The notes under the pieces are model-generated. The model made no database searches and was not told where the DNA came from. It saw only the letters and a list, made by a program, of their open reading frames with translations. A stretch of DNA of 64,000 nt from Candidatus Parachristensenella avicola (GTDB lineage: Bacteria; Bacillota; Clostridia; Christensenellales; UMGS416): NCBI GenBank assembly GCA_904420205.1, contig CAJFUN010000032.1, forward strand, positions 1 to 64,000. The letters run 5' to 3'. How positions within the stretch are numbered: the first letter of the stretch is position 1; every line of letters starts with the position of its first letter. This document shows, piece by piece, positions 11,956 to 38,563 of the stretch. The position numbers and the translations under genes were made by a program.

Positions 11956-14049
11956 ATGATTTGTCCCCATTGTCATAACCAAACGCCTGAAGGTGAGACT
12001 TGTGTCCACTGCGGGGCTGCGTTGCACGATGCCGACATAGGCGGGATGGAGACGCAGGATCAGGTCATGGATAACGATTCCCTGCGCTGCCCCTATTGTG
12101 GCGCCGCGCTGTGGGAGGACGCGGCTTTCTGCCCGGTATGCGGCCAGTCGCTTGGCCAGCCGGAAGATGCTGGAGAAACGGAGAACGCCACAGAAACGGA
12201 CGGCCTTGAAGAATCGGAATCCGGCGATCCGCCCGTGGGCTGGCGATGCCCCATCTGCGGCACCATTAACGCTCAGAATACCCGGGTATGCCGCCACTGC
12301 GGTTATGTGCTGGGCGAGGATGACCAGCAGGCCGCCGAGGGAAGCGAAGAATCCTACGGCGATGAAGAGAACTCGCAGGATGACAGCAATCGCTATTACG
12401 GCAACGAGTACAGCGCAGACAGCGCCGGCGACTATGAAGGCGACGAATCGGGGAACGGCGGCGAAGATGGCAGCGTGCGCTGCCCCCGCTGCGGGCGCTT
12501 GAACGATCCCGATGCCGAACGCTGCGGTTATTGCGGCCGCCTGCTGGTGGAGGCCGATGCCCTCCAGGTAGAAGGCCGGCCTGTGGAGGAGGGGCCGGAT
12601 AAGCTGAAGCTTACCCTTCAGATTGTCGCGGCTGTACTTCTGGTGGCGTTGATCGTCATCATGGTGCTGATTATCCGCCGGTGCGCCAACCCTACGGATC
12701 AGGTAATCACTACGCCGACCCAAACCCGTGAAGGCACTACGCTTCTATCCCCCAGCGAAACAACCACTTCGACCACGCCTACGCTGACTTCCACCTTAAC
12801 GGGAAATCCGCTATGGCCCTCCTCCACCGCCTCCGGTCCTGTTGAAACCGCCGATGCTGTGGATACCACGACCACCACCAGGCAAACCACGAGAGCAACG
12901 ACCACCACCACGAGGAAAACCACGACAACCCAACCGACGGTAGCCGTGATCACGCCTGCGCCTACAAGGCCGACCACAACAACCACAACGACTACGACCA
13001 CGACAACTACGACGACGACCACCACGACCACCACGACCACCGCCCCCACGCCGGCTCCTACACCTACACCGGCTTCTACGCCGACGCCGGCACCCACGCC
13101 GACCCCCGATCCTACACCGACACCGACGCCAGCGCCCACGCCCACGCCTGATCCTACGCCCACGCCGGAGGACACGCCCGACCCCAACACCGAGCCTGCT
13201 ACAACACCGAGCAAGGGCGACAGCGAGTGGGAGCAGGAAGTCAAGCCGGATGATAACGGATCCAACGCTGCAAATAACGGCGTCGCCGTCTCCAATGGCG
13301 GCTGGATCTACGCCAACATCAACGGGCAGCTTGTCCTGATGCGTCCGGACGGTACCAGCTCCACCACGATGGCGGAAGATGTTGCCAGCTCCCTCGTTTA
13401 TGCCGACGGCAAGGTATATTATCTCAATGGGGAAGGTCAGCTGACTTCCAATCAGAATGGCGCCAGTCAAGTCATATCCGCCGCACCCAAAGCCAATGCG
13501 CTAGCTGCGATCGGCTCCGACCTCTATCTAGCCTGTGACGATGGCATTTACCGGCTCTCCGGCGATGAGGTCACACAGGTGATTGCCGGGACTTATCGCA
13601 ACCTGGTCGCTTCTTCCGGCACGCTTTATGCGCTGGATACTGCCGCCAATACATTGGTCCGGATCGACGGTACACAGGCTAACGTGTTGACCGCGAATGT
13701 GGCGCGTTTCGCCATGGCTGGCAGCAATCTCGCCGTAGTTACCACCGATAACCGCTTGGTGCTCTGCGACGCCGCCGGCGCCGAGCAATCGCTGATTTTT
13801 GAGGGCGAGGTTCATGAGCTTACCGCCTCCAGCAGCTACATTGTCGCCTCCGTCACCGGAAGCGACGGCAGGCGGATGGTGATGCGCTTCACCCTCTCCG
13901 GCACCGGGTCCGACGGCGGCACGATGCTGGCCGAAGGCAGCTATACCAACCTTTCCCTGCTGGGCGATTGGGTATACTGCTCCTCCGGCGGCAAACTGCA
14001 TCGCCTGGCGCTGTCCGGCGGTGTGGATGAAATCATTGATCCTGCATAA
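11956..14049 (+). CDS. Multi-zinc-ribbon membrane protein with beta-propeller-like outer domain
   Basis: A 697-residue protein. Four CxxC...CxxC zinc ribbons occupy residues about 1-200 (for example CPHC/CVHCG, CPYCG/CPVCG, CPICG/CRHCG, CPRCG/CGYCG), separated by acidic linkers. A single membrane helix lies near 215-240. Next comes a Thr-rich then Pro-Thr-rich stalk (about 255-420), and residues about 435-695 are repeats of the DUF5050-like type (NGGWIYANINGQLVLMRPDG). Topology would put the ribbons in the cytoplasm and the propeller outside. The function of such clostridial proteins is unknown; sensing of the envelope is a guess. Confidence 0.75.
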   Translation: MICPHCHNQTPEGETCVHCGAALHDADIGGMETQDQVMDNDSLRCPYCGAALWEDAAFCPVCGQSLGQPEDAGETENATETDGLEESESGDPPVGWRCPICGTINAQNTRVCRHCGYVLGEDDQQAAEGSEESYGDEENSQDDSNRYYGNEYSADSAGDYEGDESGNGGEDGSVRCPRCGRLNDPDAERCGYCGRLLVEADALQVEGRPVEEGPDKLKLTLQIVAAVLLVALIVIMVLIIRRCANPTDQVITTPTQTREGTTLLSPSETTTSTTPTLTSTLTGNPLWPSSTASGPVETADAVDTTTTTRQTTRATTTTTRKTTTTQPTVAVITPAPTRPTTTTTTTTTTTTTTTTTTTTTTTAPTPAPTPTPASTPTPAPTPTPDPTPTPTPAPTPTPDPTPTPEDTPDPNTEPATTPSKGDSEWEQEVKPDDNGSNAANNGVAVSNGGWIYANINGQLVLMRPDGTSSTTMAEDVASSLVYADGKVYYLNGEGQLTSNQNGASQVISAAPKANALAAIGSDLYLACDDGIYRLSGDEVTQVIAGTYRNLVASSGTLYALDTAANTLVRIDGTQANVLTANVARFAMAGSNLAVVTTDNRLVLCDAAGAEQSLIFEGEVHELTASSSYIVASVTGSDGRRMVMRFTLSGTGSDGGTMLAEGSYTNLSLLGDWVYCSSGGKLHRLALSGGVDEIIDPA
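12972..13180 (+). repeat. Low-complexity Thr and Pro-Thr coding repeat
   Basis: About 24 consecutive threonine codons (all four ACN codons mixed) run into PTPA/PTPD repeats. Mixed codons argue for selection on the protein rather than recent slippage. It forms the extracellular stalk of the zinc-ribbon protein. The antisense frame gives a false poly-Val/Gly reading frame. Confidence 0.85.
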
Positions 14050-17321: not shown

Positions 17322-18125
17322 ATGTATAACGTCGTAATCGTAGATGATGAGGAAATCATTGCAAATGGGTTAAAGACGATCCTGCCCTGGGATCAATATA
17401 AGTGCCAGGTCGTCGGTATGGCCTATGACGGGGAAGAGGGCCTTGCCCTCATACGGAAAACCCGTCCGGATATTCTATTCACGGATATCCGGATGCCAGG
17501 CATGGATGGTCTCTCTATGATCGCTGCACTGAAAAGTGAATTCCCCCGCCTGCAAATTACCGTACTCACCGGGTTCCGCGACTTTGAATACGCCCAGACG
17601 GCGATTAAGTTGGGGGTATGCCGTTTTCTGCTGAAACCTTCCAAGATGGACGAACTGCACGAGGCGCTGACCGCCATGACTCAGGCCTTGGCCGCCATGC
17701 CGGCCTCGCCGGAGCCGGAGCCTGCCGACCCAGAGGATGAAGCGGCCGTAGCGGCCGCCGTGGAGGCGGAGCTTCCGGAAACCGAGCAAGAATCGATCAC
17801 CCATTCCTTTGTGGTGAAAAATGCGCTGCGGTATATCGACGAACAATACGCCACCAAGCTCACGCTAGCCGAAGTGGCCGAACACACCTACGTATCCCAA
17901 TGGCATCTGTCGAAGCTGCTTAATCGACATACCAACGCTTCCTTCTACGATCTGCTGAATGGTGCCCGTATCCGCGCCGCTAAAGAGCTGCTAAAAGATC
18001 CGTCGCTGAAAATCCGCGACATCGCTACAAAAGTTGGCTTTTCCGATACCGCTCATTTTGCCAAGATCTTCAAAAAGCTGGAGGGCTGCTCCGCTAACGA
18101 ATACCGTAATTCGCTGCCTGGCTAA
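17322..18125 (+). CDS. YesN-type response regulator with AraC HTH
   Basis: A 267-residue regulator. The receiver domain (1-120) has acidic residues DDEE and the phospho-aspartate in ILFTDIRMPGMDG. A charged linker (about 125-165) follows. Two AraC HTHs (about 168-265) contain DTAHFAKIFKKLEGCSANEYR. AGGAGG lies before the start. It pairs with the kinase two genes upstream. Its stop is 5 nt before the first box of the small-RNA array, so it is also a candidate, though less likely, regulator of that array. Confidence 0.9.
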   Translation: MYNVVIVDDEEIIANGLKTILPWDQYKCQVVGMAYDGEEGLALIRKTRPDILFTDIRMPGMDGLSMIAALKSEFPRLQITVLTGFRDFEYAQTAIKLGVCRFLLKPSKMDELHEALTAMTQALAAMPASPEPEPADPEDEAAVAAAVEAELPETEQESITHSFVVKNALRYIDEQYATKLTLAEVAEHTYVSQWHLSKLLNRHTNASFYDLLNGARIRAAKELLKDPSLKIRDIATKVGFSDTAHFAKIFKKLEGCSANEYRNSLPG

Positions 18126-18129
18126 GATA

Positions 18130-18183
18130 TTCATAAAATGTTCATGGCACGTTATTGTCCTGTTCATAGGCGTTTACTATAAT
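18130..18183 (+). promoter_or_regulatory. Array promoter 1: 11-bp direct-repeat boxes plus -10
   Basis: TTCAT at 18130, TTCAT at 18141, TTATT at 18152 and TTCAT at 18163 are spaced exactly 11 bp. TATAAT begins at 18178, 15 nt after the start of the last box. There is no separate -35; the boxes cover that region, as in PhoB/PhoP-activated promoters. Confidence 0.7.
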
Positions 18184-18189
18184 GACATC

Positions 18190-18335
18190 ATCCAAGGGGG
18201 AACAAACAAAAGCCGATGATCCCCTGTTGGTTTTACGATAGACTTTCTTCTTCTTTCCTCTCCCCTTTTTCTTCACAATGATGGCCCTTTCCCAAGGGCC
18301 AGAAGGGCCGGCAATCGCCGGCCCTTTTCCTTTTT
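18190..18335 (+). ncRNA. Candidate small RNA 1 of a six-member array
   Basis: The predicted transcript runs from about 18190 to the terminator. GGGG (18197-18200) can pair with CCCC (18221-18224). A pyrimidine-only stretch of about 28 nt includes CCTCTCCCC (18257-18265), complementary to a Shine-Dalgarno sequence. A perfect 8-bp hairpin TGGCCCTT-TCCC-AAGGGCCA exposes UCCC in its loop. The terminator GGGCCGGC-AATC-GCCGGCCC with U-rich tail follows. There is no ribosome binding site or plausible open frame. Confidence 0.6.
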
Positions 18336-18428
18336 CTTTGTGCCAGTCAGAAGAAAAGGGCGCCGCATTCGCTCAAAGATGTACCGCATAAAAAGCTGCG
18401 TATAAAACGCGTGAAGCGACCCATACTA

Positions 18429-18471
18429 TTTACATCCCGTTCCCAGCAGGTTCACAACTGGGCGGTATACT
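18429..18471 (+). promoter_or_regulatory. Array promoter 2
   Basis: TTTAC at 18429, TTCCC at 18440 and TTCAC at 18451, each 11 bp apart, then TATACT at 18466, again 15 nt after the last box start. The mix of TTTAC and TTCAC links the array boxes to those in front of pstS. Confidence 0.65.
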
Positions 18472-18477
18472 AACGAT

Positions 18478-18612
18478 CATCGGCGGTGCGCTTCGTGGTG
18501 GTGGCGTCGTCGTTGGATGATAGATCTTCTCTTCTTCCTCTCCATCTGTATCGGGAAGCCTCGTCCCAGGCTTCCCCCAAAAGAGGCCCGGCTGAGAAAC
18601 TGGGCCTCTTTT
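18478..18612 (+). ncRNA. Candidate small RNA 2
   Basis: GT-rich 5' part, then a pyrimidine stretch with CCTCTCC (18537-18543). A 9-bp hairpin GGGAAGCCT-CGTCCC-AGGCTTCCC (18553-18576) has UCCC in the loop. The terminator AGAGGCCC/GGGCCTCT ends in TTTT (to 18612). No coding potential seen. Confidence 0.55.
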
Positions 18613-18625
18613 GCGTTGAAAAATC

Positions 18626-18679
18626 TTTACGCTGCTATGATCATTCGTTCACACATGATTCATGAAGGCGTCATAGGAT
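18626..18679 (+). promoter_or_regulatory. Array promoter 3
   Basis: TTTAC at 18626, TTCAC at 18648 and TTCAT at 18659 lie on the same 11-bp grid (the position at 18637 is degenerate). TAGGAT begins at 18674, 15 nt after the last box start. Confidence 0.6.
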
Positions 18680-18685
18680 AAATGT

Positions 18686-18791
18686 GCGGATGATCATCGC
18701 GCCATGCATATCATCCGGTTGATCCAAACTTCCTTCTTTCCAATTTCCTCTCCCCTTGCCCGGCCGGCTTCCCACGGCCGGGCCTTTTTTT
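18686..18791 (+). ncRNA. Candidate small RNA 3
   Basis: The 5' hairpin has perfect arms CGGATGAT (18687-18694) and ATCATCCG (18710-18717), beginning next to the predicted start. A pyrimidine stretch with CCTCTCCCC (18747-18755) follows. The terminator has 9-bp arms GCCCGGCCG/CGGCCGGGC, loop GCTTCCCA and seven T residues. The pyrimidine block is almost identical to that of RNA 6 and the terminator stem-loop is identical to those of RNAs 4 and 6. Confidence 0.65.
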
Positions 18792-18816
18792 CTTCTTTAA
18801 AGAAACTGTTTCGCCG

Positions 18817-18848
18817 TTCATGTTAGCTTCATCTTACCGGCGTATACT
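18817..18848 (+). promoter_or_regulatory. Array promoter 4
   Basis: TTCAT at 18817 and 18828 (11 bp) and TATACT at 18843, 15 nt after the last box start. The box region is nearly identical to that of promoter 6. Confidence 0.68.
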
Positions 18849-18854
18849 AATTCT

Positions 18855-18959
18855 TGTCAACGGGCGGTGCCATCTAAGTCCCGTTGTGCGAAACGACCTA
18901 TTTCCTTCTTCCCTTCTTCTCCCTCATGCCCGGCCGGCTTCCCACGGCCGGGCCTTTTT
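18855..18959 (+). ncRNA. Candidate small RNA 4
   Basis: 5' hairpin CAACGGG (18858-18864) with CCCGTTG (18880-18886), then a pyrimidine block with TTCTCCC (18917-18923). The terminator has arms GCCCGGCCG/CGGCCGGGC, UCCC in the loop and five T residues (18928-18959). Confidence 0.65.
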
Positions 18960-18972
18960 GTATGCCGCCTTG

Positions 18973-19004
18973 TACACGTTGATTTCATGCTGGCCTTATA
19001 TCGT
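18973..19004 (+). promoter_or_regulatory. Array promoter 5 (weakest)
   Basis: TACAC at 18973 and TTCAT at 18984 are 11 bp apart and TATCGT begins at 18999, 15 nt after the last box start. One box and the -10 are degenerate, so this unit is the least certain. Confidence 0.45.
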
Positions 19005-19010
19005 CATTTT

Positions 19011-19103
19011 GTCCATTGGGAAAAAGAAGGCGCTCGGCCGCCGGACCTATTTCTATTCGATTTCTTCCCCCCAACCTGTCCGCTTTTATGGCCGGATTTT
19101 TTT
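19011..19103 (+). ncRNA. Candidate small RNA 5
   Basis: GTCC (19011-19014) pairs with GGAC (19043-19046) over an inner GGCG/CGCC stem. A pyrimidine stretch with TTCTTCCCCCC (19062-19072) follows. A weak hairpin GTCCG/CGGAT then leads into seven T residues (to 19103). It lacks the conserved terminator of its neighbours. Confidence 0.45.
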
Positions 19104-19121
19104 CTCAAAAAAGTCCTTTTG

Positions 19122-19153
19122 TTCATCTTAGCTTCATCTTGCTTATGTAAGAT
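19122..19153 (+). promoter_or_regulatory. Array promoter 6
   Basis: TTCAT at 19122 and 19133 (11 bp) and TAAGAT at 19148, 15 nt after the last box start. Confidence 0.62.
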
Positions 19154-19159
19154 AAAACC

Positions 19160-19285
19160 AGCCGATGGGGATTATGCAAAACGGATGACGACCGTTCCCC
19201 GTCGTGTTCATAGATCTTCTTCCTTCTTTCCAATTTCTTCTCCCATGGCCCGGCCGGCTTCCCACGGCCGGGCCGCTTCCTTTTT
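19160..19285 (+). ncRNA. Candidate small RNA 6
   Basis: 5' hairpin with GGGG (19167-19170)/CCCC (19197-19200) enclosing AACGG/CCGTT. A pyrimidine block nearly identical to RNA 3 ends in TTCTTCTCCC (19235-19244). The terminator has arms GCCCGGCCG/CGGCCGGGC with the UCCC loop, and the T run starts a few bases after the stem. Confidence 0.62.
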
Positions 19286-19504
19286 GGCGCTAAACGGCGG
19301 CGACGGGAAACACAGCTGCTGTCCAGGCGTCCCGTATGCCCATGCCCCAGCCGCCGCGGCGCTATCCGCCTTTGCCTCGCCGTCGAGGATGCTGGCTTAT
19401 GTTCCGTGTTGGGCGCCGTCCGATCCGATTAATCGGCCTTTGGGCATTCCGTACGCCGATGCCAAAAAAGGCTTCATCGATGCGGCATTTTTCAATAATA
19501 ACCG
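19286..19504. other. Gene-free stretch after the array
   Basis: GC-rich, no ribosome binding site with a supported frame and no further TTyAy boxes in the array geometry. The long + frame that crosses the array here is a by-product of low stop density. Confidence 0.5.
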
Positions 19505-19560: not shown

Positions 19561-22014
19561 CTACTTCGTCTGCTCAAAGCGCAGCTTCGGCAGATGCCAG
19601 ATGGTGTCGTTATACTCTAGGATGGTACGGTCTGAGCTAAAGAAGCCGGATCTGGCCGTATTAACAATCGCCCGTTTCCACCAGTCGCTGGTCTGGGCGT
19701 AAGCCTGCTGCACACGCTGCTGTACGTCCACATAATCCGGCAGGTCCTTTAACACTAGATAGGGATCCGCCATACCGCCGAAGTCTCCATAGATCAGGCC
19801 ATGGTACAGTTCCGGGAAAGTCACGCCCAATGTGCCGTCATTCAGCTGCTCCATGGCTCGCCGGATCTCCGGTTGGCTCTCCAGCACATCATATGCATGA
19901 TAGCTATGGGTATTGTACAGCGCATCTACCTGCGAAGTATTAAGCCCAAAGATGAAAATATTCTCATCGCCCACCAGCTGGCCAATCTCCACATTGGCGC
20001 CGTCCAGGGTGCCGACGGTCAGCGCGCCGTTCATCATGAATTTCATATTGCCGGTGCCGGAGGCCTCCTTACCGGCAGTGGAAAGTTGCTCGCTGATTTC
20101 AGCAGCCGGAATCAGCAGCTCCGCTGCCGATACGCAATAGTTCTCCAAAAAGACGACCTGCATCATTTTGCTGGCCCTGGGATGCTTCGCCACCAGCTGA
20201 CCTACCGCGTTAATGAAATGAATGATCTGCTTGGCCCGCTGGTAGCCCGGCGAAGCCTTAGCGCCGAAGATATAACACCGAGGCGTAATGGTATAGTTGG
20301 GATCATCGGCAATGCGGTTATACTGAATCAGGATATGAAGCGCATTGATCATCTGGCGCTTATATTCATGCAGCCGTTTGGCCTGTACGTCGAAAATAGC
20401 GTCGGTATGCATGACCACCCCCTGGGTGCGCTCCATAAAAGTGGCCAGCCGCAGCTTATTGGCCTGCTTTACCCGGGCGTACTGCTCCAGGAATGCCGCG
20501 TCCTCGCTATAGGGCTCTAGTTCTGAAAGCAGCGCCGCATCCCGCCGCCAGTTCTCGCCGATGGTTTCATCCAAGAGGGCGGACAGCGCGGGATTGGCCT
20601 GCATCAGCCAGCGGCGGTGGGTGATGCCGTTGGTAATGCCGGAGAATTTTTCGGGGCTCACCAGATTAAAATCCTTAAAGGTTGACTTCTTGAGGATCGC
20701 GCCATGCAGCTGGGATACGCCGTTAACGTTATGACTGACCCAAATACACAGGTTCGCCATCTGAACCTGGTTATCCGCGATGATGGCCATCTTGCCGATA
20801 CGGTCCCATTGGCCCGGGAAGCGATCCCAAAGCTGAGCGCACTGGCGGCGATTCATCTCCTCCAGGATCATGTAGATCCGAGGCAATAGCGACTTGACCA
20901 TATCAATCGGCCATTTCTCCAGGGCTTCGGCCAGAATGGTATGGTTGGTATAGGCGAATACCCCCTGGCAGATGCGCTCTGCCCGATCCCAAGCCAAGCC
21001 TTTCTCATCCATCAGGATGCGCATCATCTCCGGAATCGCCAGGCCCGGGTGCGTATCGTTAATATGGATGGCCATCTTTTCCGGAAGCCGGTCCCACCGG
21101 GGCCCATAGGTCTCTTCAAAGTCCTTCAGCGCATACTGCACCGAGGCAGACGCGAAAAAATACTGCTGCTTCAATCGCAGTTCGCGGCCGGCATAATGGT
21201 TGTCTTCCGGATAGAGCACTTTGGAGATCACCTCCGCCAGCTCCTGCTCCTCCATGGCCCGCATGTACTGACCCTGGTTGAAACTTGCCATATCCAGCTG
21301 CTTGGGCGACTGGGCCGACCACATCCGAAGCCGGTCTACATTGACTGTATCATAGCCCACCACAGGCATATCATAGGGCACAGCCAACACCGTCACCGGG
21401 TCATGATGCCGGATCGTAAGCTTGCCCGAGGACCAATCTTCCTCGATCCACCCGTAGAAGTGCACCTGGCAGGTCTGTTCCGGGTAGGCAATCTCCCAAT
21501 CGTTTCCATTCGCCAGCCAGTTGTCCGCCAGCTCTACCTGCTGCCCATCTACCAGCTTCTGGCGGAAAAGCCCGTATTCATAGCGGATCGTGCAGCCCAT
21601 AGCCGGCAGATCCAGCGTAGCCAGCGACTCCAGGAAGCAGGCAGCCAGGCGGCCCAAACCGCCGTTGCCCAAGCCGGGCTCCGGCTCCTGCTCGGCTACC
21701 GCCGTAAGGTCAACGCCCATCTCCTCCAGCGCTTGGCGGTAGGCTTTTGTGCTCATCAGGTTGATGATGTTCTGATAGGTAACCCGTCCGGTTAAAAACT
21801 CAGCCGATAGATAGTACAGCTTTTTTGCGCCCTGGCGCTTGCGCGCGCCGCGAGATACGGCCCGCTGCTCCATCACCTGATCGCGTACAGTCAGCGCCAG
21901 CGCGTGATAAATCTGCTGGGGCGTGGCGTCGGACACCTCGCAGCCATATAGGTGGCGAAGCTTACGCTGGATGCTCTGCTTGATCTCCTCAGGCGTATAG
22001 TGGGATACCTGCAT
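19561..22014 (-). CDS. glgP: Glycogen/starch/alpha-glucan phosphorylase
   Basis: An 817-residue GT35 phosphorylase of full length. It releases glucose-1-phosphate from alpha-1,4-glucans using inorganic phosphate, with pyridoxal phosphate bound to the lysine in GTGNMKFMMNGALTVGT. N-terminal GNGGLGRLAACFLES and AIHINDTHP are family signatures. Start follows AAGGAGGGG. No glgC, glgA or glgB lies nearby. A minus-strand extended -10 (TGATATAGT) lies about 90 nt upstream. The gene converges on the small-RNA array. Confidence 0.96.
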   Translation of the reverse strand: MQVSHYTPEEIKQSIQRKLRHLYGCEVSDATPQQIYHALALTVRDQVMEQRAVSRGARKRQGAKKLYYLSAEFLTGRVTYQNIINLMSTKAYRQALEEMGVDLTAVAEQEPEPGLGNGGLGRLAACFLESLATLDLPAMGCTIRYEYGLFRQKLVDGQQVELADNWLANGNDWEIAYPEQTCQVHFYGWIEEDWSSGKLTIRHHDPVTVLAVPYDMPVVGYDTVNVDRLRMWSAQSPKQLDMASFNQGQYMRAMEEQELAEVISKVLYPEDNHYAGRELRLKQQYFFASASVQYALKDFEETYGPRWDRLPEKMAIHINDTHPGLAIPEMMRILMDEKGLAWDRAERICQGVFAYTNHTILAEALEKWPIDMVKSLLPRIYMILEEMNRRQCAQLWDRFPGQWDRIGKMAIIADNQVQMANLCIWVSHNVNGVSQLHGAILKKSTFKDFNLVSPEKFSGITNGITHRRWLMQANPALSALLDETIGENWRRDAALLSELEPYSEDAAFLEQYARVKQANKLRLATFMERTQGVVMHTDAIFDVQAKRLHEYKRQMINALHILIQYNRIADDPNYTITPRCYIFGAKASPGYQRAKQIIHFINAVGQLVAKHPRASKMMQVVFLENYCVSAAELLIPAAEISEQLSTAGKEASGTGNMKFMMNGALTVGTLDGANVEIGQLVGDENIFIFGLNTSQVDALYNTHSYHAYDVLESQPEIRRAMEQLNDGTLGVTFPELYHGLIYGDFGGMADPYLVLKDLPDYVDVQQRVQQAYAQTSDWWKRAIVNTARSGFFSSDRTILEYNDTIWHLPKLRFEQTK

Positions 22015-33548: not shown

Positions 33549-33613
33549 TTCAATTATGTTTTACCCATATTTTACGTAAGTAAGAAGCGTATTTTACAAT
33601 TAAGCGATATGCT
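33549..33613 (+). promoter_or_regulatory. Candidate PHO boxes and -10 of the pst operon
   Basis: TTCAA at 33549, TTTAC at 33560, TTTAC at 33571 and TTTAC at 33593 lie on one 11-bp grid (33582 is degenerate). TATGCT begins at 33608, 15 nt after the last box start, the same offset as in all six array promoters at 18.1-19.2 kb. Direct repeats with 11-bp period in place of a -35 are the hallmark of PhoB/PhoP boxes, and phoPR is in this operon. Confidence 0.72.
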
Positions 33614-33645: not shown

Positions 33646-34611
33646 ATGAAAAAGCTTACCGGAATGCTTCTGGCATGCACCATGCTGGTGGGCCTGATGG
33701 CGGGCTGCTCGACCACGCCGACGGCCACCACGACGACGACCACGACCGCCGCCAACGACACCACTGCGGCCGATGCCACGACCACGGCTGCCGCTGACGA
33801 AACCACCGCCGCCGCAGCGCAGGGTCTGACCGACGATATCGTCGTCATCTCCCGTGAAGACGGCTCCGGCACCCGCGGCGCTTTCATTGAGCTGATGGGC
33901 GTGCAGGTAGAGGACGAAGCCGGCAACAAATCCGATATGACCACGCCCGGCGCGGTCATCGCCAACAAGACCGACGTCATGCTGACCCAGGTGTCCGGCA
34001 ACAAGGCCGCCATCGGCTATGTATCCCTGGGCTCGCTCAACGATACCGTCAAAGCCCTGTCCATTGACGGCGTAGAGGCCACCAATGAGAATGTTAAGAA
34101 CGGCTCCTATGCTGTGGCCCGTCCTTTCAACATCGCGACCAAAGGCACGCCGGAAGAGGGCAGCCTGACCGCTGATTTCATCTCCTTTATCCTCAGCAAG
34201 GAAGGCCAGGAGGTCATCTCCGACGGCTACATTCCCGTAGACGATGCGGCGCCTGCCTATGCCGGCACCAAGCCCTCCGGTAAGATCACGGTGGGCGGCT
34301 CTTCCTCCGTCACGCCCATCATGGAAAAGCTGAAGGAGGCCTATGTGGCCCTGAACCCCAACGCCACCATTGAACTGCAGCAGAGCGACTCCACCGCGGG
34401 AATGACTTCCACCATCGATGGCACCTATGACATCGGCATGGCTTCCCGCGAGCTGAAGGATTCCGAAAAGGCTGAACTGACCGGCACGCAGATCGCCATC
34501 GACGGTATCGCCGTCATCGTGAACCCCGAAAATCCCGTCAACGACCTGAGCCAGGACGCTGTGCGCGCCATCTTCACCGGCGAGACGACCAACTGGGCGA
34601 ACGTTGAGTAA
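33646..34611 (+). CDS. pstS: Phosphate-binding lipoprotein PstS, circularly permuted order
   Basis: A 321-residue lipoprotein with lipobox AGCS near residue 20 and a Thr/Ala-rich linker (25-60). The half that is normally second in PstS (VISREDGSGTRGAF, AIGYVSLGSL, FILSKEGQEV) comes first. The half that is normally first (GSSSVTPIMEKLKEAY, IGMASRELKD, RAIFTGETTNW) comes last. Phosphate-binding Ser/Thr/Arg/Asp motifs are all present. I believe some other clostridial PstS share this order. It feeds PstCAB. Confidence 0.92.
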   Translation: MKKLTGMLLACTMLVGLMAGCSTTPTATTTTTTTAANDTTAADATTTAAADETTAAAAQGLTDDIVVISREDGSGTRGAFIELMGVQVEDEAGNKSDMTTPGAVIANKTDVMLTQVSGNKAAIGYVSLGSLNDTVKALSIDGVEATNENVKNGSYAVARPFNIATKGTPEEGSLTADFISFILSKEGQEVISDGYIPVDDAAPAYAGTKPSGKITVGGSSSVTPIMEKLKEAYVALNPNATIELQQSDSTAGMTSTIDGTYDIGMASRELKDSEKAELTGTQIAIDGIAVIVNPENPVNDLSQDAVRAIFTGETTNWANVE

Positions 34612-37876: not shown

Positions 37877-38563
37877 ATGACGAAAATATACTGTGTCGAG
37901 GACGACGAAAGCATCCGGGAGCTCATCAGCTACGCCATGAAGAGCGCAGGCTTCTTATGCCAGGGTTTTGAGTCCGGTGCGCCCTTTAAAGAAGCGCTGG
38001 CCCACGAGGCGCCGCCGGATCTTGTGCTGCTGGATATCATGCTGCCGGGCGAAGACGGGCTGAAGCTACTGGACGATATGCGCGCCGACAGCGCCACCCG
38101 CAATACGCCGGTCATCATGCTGACGGCAAAAACCAGCGAGGTTGACCGGGTTCGGGGTCTAGACCGGGGCGCTGACGACTACATTTGCAAACCCTTCGGC
38201 GTGATGGAGCTGATCTCCCGGGTCAAGGCTGTGCTGCGCCGCTGCGCGGGGCCGGTGGCCGATATCATCCGCTACCGCAACCTGACTTTAAGCTACGATC
38301 AGCGCACCGTGGAGGTGGATGGGCGAAACGTCAAGCTTACCTATAAAGAATTTGAGCTATTATACTTCCTTTTATCCAACCAGGGCATGGTGCTCTCCCG
38401 CGACCGCATGCTGCAGACCATCTGGGGTTATGAATATGAAGGTGAAACGCGCACCGTGGATATGCACATCAAAACCCTCCGCCAGAAGCTGGAGGCCCAA
38501 GGCTGCACCGACCTTATCGTAACGGTCCGGGGGATTGGATATAAGGTGGAGAGAGACCGATGA
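37877..38563 (+). CDS. phoP: OmpR-family response regulator PhoP/PhoB
   Basis: A 228-residue regulator. The receiver has acidic EDDE and the phospho-Asp in VLLDIMLPGEDG. The C-terminal winged helix (about 130-226) includes VKLTYKEFELLYFL and GYEYEGETRTVDMHIKTLRQKL. Such proteins bind 11-bp direct repeats; the repeats before pstS and before the six array RNAs fit this. Overlaps phoR by 4 nt. Named by context in the pst operon. Confidence 0.93.
   Translation: MTKIYCVEDDESIRELISYAMKSAGFLCQGFESGAPFKEALAHEAPPDLVLLDIMLPGEDGLKLLDDMRADSATRNTPVIMLTAKTSEVDRVRGLDRGADDYICKPFGVMELISRVKAVLRRCAGPVADIIRYRNLTLSYDQRTVEVDGRNVKLTYKEFELLYFLLSNQGMVLSRDRMLQTIWGYEYEGETRTVDMHIKTLRQKLEAQGCTDLIVTVRGIGYKVERDR

Follow-up and report, generated by a model that had tools for sequence, protein, structure and literature searches.

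The window, which is the whole 64,000-nucleotide stretch of DNA analysed, carries at positions 18130-19285 six tandem units that are probably six small RNA (sRNA) genes with individual promoters and terminators, activated by a WalR/YycF-like response regulator (RR) and acting as translation blockers by masking Shine-Dalgarno (SD) sequences. The promoter array, the anatomy of the RNAs and the repeated occurrence of the promoter element in the order, ahead of walR, htrA and anti-translation-start RNAs, were computed from the DNA, and from them we infer that the units are transcribed, together with their regulator, signal and targets.

Results

Six tandem promoters with one geometry

To the left of the array, an operon of a sensor kinase, a solute-binding protein and an AraC-type response regulator ends at 18125; to the right, a glycogen phosphorylase gene (19561-22014, minus strand) runs towards it. 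All six promoters, one per unit, face right within 1.18 kb, and their half-sites are of the TTCAY type (boxes TTCAY/TTTAC) on an 11-nt grid. An earlier note on this DNA had placed six units here with a start-to-start distance of 15 nt from the last box to the -10 hexamer, and both the positions and the spacing were confirmed in 6/6 units (Table 1). The pattern TTCAY-N10-TAnnnT occurred six times on the plus strand of the array and never on its minus strand, against 0.049 expected for this stretch (mean of 2000 dinucleotide shuffles), and three times in the remaining window with both strands counted. A scan of every window position with a degenerate grid model (TTYAY), composed after the units and the pstS promoter were already in view, placed the six units at ranks 1, 2 and 4-7 and the pstS promoter at rank 3. 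A position weight matrix (PWM) made from the six array promoters alone recovered its own training sites and is too small for classifying others.

The same note had called the stretch gene-free, which was borne out. Mechanical open reading frames (ORFs) of 219 and 103 aa run across the terminators, and nothing in the array reached the Pfam cut-off (no match for the 219-aa ORF, chance-level matches only for the 103-aa ORF). The Rfam search that it had suggested (Rfam 15) gave no family at gathering score, either for the array or for six loci carrying related RNAs, and LhrC was absent among the weak matches. SraC, mmgR and other Rfam matches at E 0.03-1 lay below gathering and were rejected. A tRNA search of the window found none. 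Elsewhere in the window, 11956-14049 encodes a zinc-ribbon membrane protein whose very long linker is made of poly-threonine and PTP/TPA repeats.

Table 1 Promoters and predicted RNAs of the array, with the pstS promoter for comparison
Feature	Position	Strand	Fold z	Details
Unit 1 promoter	18130-18183	+		TTCAT 18130, 18141, 18163; weak TTATT 18152; -10 TATAAT 18178-18183
Unit 1 sRNA (predicted)	18190-18340	+	-4.6	C/U tract 18243-18275; UCCC-loop hairpin 18282-18301 (UCCC at 18290 unpaired); terminator 18301-18328 + T tract
Unit 2 promoter	18429-18471	+		TTTAC 18429, TTCCC 18440, TTCAC 18451; -10 TATACT 18466-18471
Unit 2 sRNA (predicted)	18478-18615	+	-3.7	5' stem; C/U tract 18526-18547; UCCC-loop hairpin ~18553-18577; terminator ~18578-18613
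Unit 3 promoter	18626-18679	+		TTTAC 18626, TTCAC 18648, TTCAT 18659; -10 TAGGAT 18674-18679
Unit 3 sRNA (predicted)	18686-18792	+	-4.1	5' hairpin 18687-18717; C/U tract 18729-18757; terminator 18758-18783, loop GCUUCCCA, + T tract
Unit 4 promoter	18817-18848	+		TTCAT 18817, 18828; -10 TATACT 18843-18848
Unit 4 sRNA (predicted)	18855-18960	+	-3.0	5' hairpin; C/U tract 18899-18926; terminator 18928-18953 + T tract
Unit 5 promoter	18973-19004	+		TACAC 18973, TTCAT 18984; -10 at 18999
Unit 5, degenerate copy	19011-19108	+	+0.5	C/U tract ~19049-19074; weak terminator; GACCTATTTC common to units 4 and 5
Unit 6 promoter	19122-19153	+		TTCAT 19122, 19133; -10 TAAGAT 19148-19153
Unit 6 sRNA (predicted)	19160-19286	+	-3.9	5' hairpin 19161-19207; candidate anti-AUG/anti-SD UUCAUAGAUCUUCUUCC at 19207-19223; C/U tract to 19244; terminator 19246-19275
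pstS promoter, outside array	33549-33613	+		PhoB-type TTTAC boxes

Anatomy of the predicted RNAs

Compared with shuffles, five of the six downstream RNAs folded better (z between -3.0 and -4.6), the exception being unit 5. In 5/6 units the RNA began with a 5' stem or hairpin, continued with a C/U-rich tract and ended in one or two GC-rich hairpins with a terminator and T tract; the 5' stem or hairpin, present in most units, is a feature absent from the earlier note. The C/U tract was clearly unpaired between two stem-loops in units 3, 4 and 6, partly paired in the MFE fold of units 1 and 2, and not so placed in unit 5. A UCCC was exposed in a hairpin loop of units 1, 2, 3, 4 and 6. An anti-start-codon CAU beside an anti-SD sequence has a candidate in unit 6 and no clear one in units 1-5.

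The terminator hairpin claimed for every unit was found as a strong GC hairpin with T tract in units 1-4 and 6, and is weak in unit 5. Because its fold is no better than shuffles and its terminator is weak, unit 5 may be a decayed copy. The terminator stem-loops of units 3, 4 and 6 are identical, as had been noticed, and therefore show no covariation, and the near-identical pyrimidine block of units 3 and 6 proved to be a 56-nt block, terminator included, with 95% identity. Promoter and tract columns were invariant in the alignment of the units. This invariance, the 56-nt blocks and the terminator common to units 3, 4 and 6 indicate that the units are related by duplication.

The promoter element across the order

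In its strict form, TTCAY-N6-TTCAY-N10-TAWRMT, the element gave about 40 matches in 22 of the 121 genomes of the order, and the reversed control gave 0. Matches stood upstream of a walR ortholog (L235 in G032), before the htrA immediately 3' of walRK in two genomes (L225 in G037, L226 in G097), before another htrA (L234 in G067), before two other RR-HK operons (L026, L028) and some unrelated genes, and before orphan short RNA genes with terminators in three families. Judged by these sequences, the TTCAY promoter element is real beyond the source genome.

Two further sets of loci were observed beside these. At the loci L030, L045, L046 and L047 of genus g37, TTCAT-N6-TTCAC-N10-TATACT is followed by a strong SD and a tiny ORF starting ATGCTTGCA; this element is conserved, has no obvious gene downstream and could be a leader peptide or a regulatory RNA. 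At the loci L033, L034, L049, L231 and L233 of genus g20, genes for NAD-epimerase and FAD enzymes follow promoters of the form TTCATAAA...TTCACA...GTGTCATATAAT, and GACACA...TGTGTC lies close to some of them; these promoters probably belong to a different regulator, with the half-site shared by chance.

A WalR-like regulator fits the array best

The earlier note named no regulator, and we propose a WalR-like one here. The source genome encodes a WalR-like RR (C24:110637-111338) in a walR-walK-htrA (RR-HK-HtrA) operon outside the array; among curated families, the RR matches YycF best and the HK WalK, in neither case reaching the NCBIfam cut-off. Its orthologs in the family are mostly 68-75% identical. 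Its own promoter carries TTTAC-N6-TTCAC one helical turn further upstream than the array boxes, and in several of the family orthologs the promoter has TTCAT-N6-TTCAT, likewise displaced upstream by about one helical turn. Among 30 upstream regions of walR-like genes in all, TTYAY-N6-TTCAY was present in 4 (0.01 expected) and the TTWAC pair in 0. A PWM from walR/htrA promoters of other genomes, whose training set was found in part by the TTCAY pattern and includes two RRs that are not walR orthologs, scored the own walR promoter 17.8, unit 4 15.1, unit 6 14.3, unit 3 10.9, the distal pair of unit 1 9.0 and unit 5 5.2, and the proximal pairs of units 2 and 1 -1.9 and -5.9. Units 3-6 and the distal unit 1 pair thus match the walR/htrA promoters of the lineage. 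The weak match of both proximal pairs, in units 1 and 2, counts against WalR control, as does the more distant position of the boxes in the own walR promoter. On this promoter evidence, the WalR/YycF-like RR of the walR-walK-htrA operon is the regulator that fits the array best.

The source genome has eleven OmpR-family regulators, and one of the ten besides the WalR-like RR could instead drive the same sRNA array, which we consider unlikely. TTCAY pairs before the L026 and L028 RR operons and before unrelated genes would agree with such control, as would the partial match upstream of L057 (C7:22132). However, on inspection the clearest TTYAY-N6-TTCAY pair near a start among the eleven belongs to the walR-like gene, and this pair is common to walR orthologs and htrA genes.

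PhoB was suspected at first, because the pstSCAB-phoUBR operon, phoB (37877-38563) included, lies in the window 14 kb from the array, which would then be a phosphate-starvation sRNA regulon. Both promoter types have 11-nt direct repeats with a similar distance to the -10, and the pstS promoter ranks among the six units under the grid model. That model was designed with array and pstS both known, and independent PWM tests were therefore made. A PhoB-type PWM from other genomes' pst promoters scored the own pstS promoter +16.9 and the array sites between -6.6 and -16.2. TTWAC-N6-TTWAC was present in 22 of the 32 regions surveyed upstream of pst in the order (0.1 expected), and TTCAY pairs in 0. 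Control by PhoB was rejected on this survey and on the PhoB and walR/htrA PWMs, and we regard it as very unlikely.

The order-wide pst promoters (L098-L127) were also informative in their own right: their PhoB boxes have the form TTTTACA, repeated at 11 nt and in many cases joined by a third copy ~23 nt further on, a pattern usable in searches for Pho regulons. The PstS protein (window 33646-34611; L020:4343-5419) looks circularly permuted, with the VISREDGSGTRGAF half, normally C-terminal, before the KITVGGSSSVTPIMEKLKEAY half; the same permuted order was seen in G001, and the best stretch against TIGR02136 aligned protein 199-320 with profile 26-155.

Orphan RNAs in relatives carry anti-translation-start cores

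In other genera of the same family, one unit each was found in G002 (L043) and G007 (L044), both with two boxes, a -10, a core and then a hairpin with T tract; their anti-translation-start sequences are CAUCGGUCCUCCUUACCUCCUU and CAUUGACUCCUCC, respectively. Those of the RNAs in genera g37 and g20, which belong to two further families, are UUUUCAUAAAUCUUCUUUCUC and UUUUCAUAAAUUCUCCUAC. The g37 RNA, in four genomes, has four TTCAT boxes on an 11-nt grid, a -10, an invariant ACUUUUCAUAAAUCUUCUUUCUC and a terminator. In g20, where the canonical box was checked in part of the members, UUUUCAUAAAUUCUCCUACAC is common to four genomes and the 15-bp terminator stem pairs in 4/4, with two-sided (compensatory) changes at 6/15 pairs when the rows, two of them adjusted by one position by eye, are read in register; the core is invariant. 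Orphan RNAs under the element carry an anti-SD, several with an anti-AUG too. Because the cores are complements of SD-spacer-AUG-AAA, and an orphan-RNA 19-mer found elsewhere (e.g. L247) is the antisense strand of genuine gene starts, the conserved feature is complementarity to the translation start.

The earlier note had looked to related genomes for conservation. This held for boxes, -10, anti-translation-start core and terminator in g37 and for the core in g20; it did not hold for the array itself, for which DNA similarity revealed no homolog in the seven further family genomes searched (the source genome being the only one of its genus in the set), at the neighbouring RR gene in named genomes, or in phages. 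Its reading of the units as a regulated sRNA family like csRNAs and LhrC, still a prediction, is supported by this comparative evidence from the order.

The array RNAs might interact with an RNA-binding protein as its sponges or ligands, or be mRNAs of short peptides, rather than base-pairing repressors. Their many-copy, low-complexity C/U tracts resemble multicopy decoys, and a 21-codon ORF is readable by eye in unit 1, whereas no ORF common to the units was seen by eye and the relatives' RNAs combine anti-SD with anti-AUG in a core that stays invariant while stems vary, which makes such roles improbable. That the array consists of chance or degenerate repeats and is untranscribed is scarcely credible, since the decayed look of unit 5 and the confinement of an array at this site to one genome are set against six correctly spaced promoters where 0.05 are expected, their terminators, and an element that recurs in the order with zero reversed-control matches.

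Proposed mechanism and targets

In the preferred reading, a WalR-controlled set of SD-masking sRNAs, envelope stress would lead to phosphorylation of the WalR-like RR. As the geometry suggests, the phosphorylated RR would bind the NTTCAY-N5-NTTCAY direct repeats, which lie immediately before the -10, and recruit polymerase at the six promoters, activating the units together. Each predicted RNA of ~100-150 nt would expose an unpaired C/U tract between its 5' stem or hairpin and its terminator, as well as a UCCC loop. Tracts and loops would pair with the SD of target mRNAs and block initiation, and unit 6 might perhaps pair with the start codon in addition. In pairing calculations with genes of the window, the C/U tracts favoured gene starts over coding segments as pairing partners (p 1e-3 to 1e-5). 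Shuffled tracts paired with gene starts about equally well, so the pairing is an effect of composition more than of exact sequence. A genome search with the unit-6 complement at ≤2 mismatches found one other site, which opens no real ORF, and no strong single target for unit 6 emerged from genome search and inspection.

Discussion

A broader reading, on which we are evenly divided, would be that throughout the order a WalR-like envelope regulator also acts post-transcriptionally, through lineage-specific, fast-evolving sRNAs in which only the complement of the translation start (SD-spacer-AUG) is conserved and which reach six tandem copies here, a csRNA-like regulon with an origin independent of CiaR. 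If true, the strategy of csRNAs and LhrC (an envelope two-component system, multicopy anti-SD RNAs, a fixed promoter geometry) recurs beyond Bacilli, where the regulator is a relative of WalRK, which is usually essential. The combination of NTTCAY-N5-NTTCAY-N10-TAnnnT, an anti-translation-start core and a terminator also offers a search signature for sRNAs in poorly studied Clostridia. In the open-access literature we found no such array in these bacteria and no described sRNA of this kind in poorly studied Clostridia, nor did we find a WalR-driven sRNA family in the literature; in a review of Staphylococcus aureus sRNAs, the part consulted mentions WalR as the target of an sRNA and not as the activator of one (PMC9266662).

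The proposed regulon resembles the WalR/YycF regulon of Bacillota in its best-matching families (YycF and WalK), in the HtrA gene downstream and in its 11-nt direct repeats. The search for WalR sites in Clostridioides difficile used TGTWAH-N5-TGTWAH, and the wal operon was reported not to be autoregulated (PMC9210968). By reading, the NTTCAY half-sites of the array differ from this consensus, whereas the period is alike. Both the different box and the lack of autoregulation in the wal operons studied in other bacteria count against WalR control of the array.

Streptococcal csRNAs, which are under the two-component system CiaRH (PMC3091779, PMC8186281), were predicted by TTTAAG-N5-TTTAAG-N10-TATAAT plus a terminator, and keep their anti-SD/anti-AUG region unpaired, with a stem-loop on either side (PMC3091779). 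The array is likewise multicopy and, as proposed, under a two-component regulator, with a direct-repeat period of 11 nt, exactly 10 nt from repeat to -10, a terminator within 250 nt and, clearly in units 3, 4 and 6, an unpaired anti-SD between two stem-loops; HtrA belongs to the CiaRH regulon and to the one proposed here. Unlike the csRNAs, the array has the box TTCAY/TTTAC instead of TTTAAG (the CiaR repeat NTTAAG-N5-TTTAAG is absent), a proposed WalR/YycF-like regulator, GC-rich 5' stems and terminators, six units head-to-tail in 1.2 kb, no Rfam match and a candidate anti-AUG only in unit 6.

Listeria LhrC1-5 comprises five copies under LisRK control during cell-envelope stress, with redundant UCCC-bearing C/U motifs (PMC4132741). 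The array resembles it in being multicopy, in an RNA length close to the ~110 nt of LhrC and in redundant C/U motifs with UCCC in loops and single strands, and the induction of LhrC by envelope stress through a two-component system is what we propose for the array. In contrast, LhrC copies are nearly identical, whereas the array units share only the C/U block and terminator, lack an Rfam match and have a different regulator, as proposed, and a different box. As far as its sequence tells, the array would work like csRNAs and LhrC, yet it is assigned to neither family, because its box and its RNA sequence differ from theirs.
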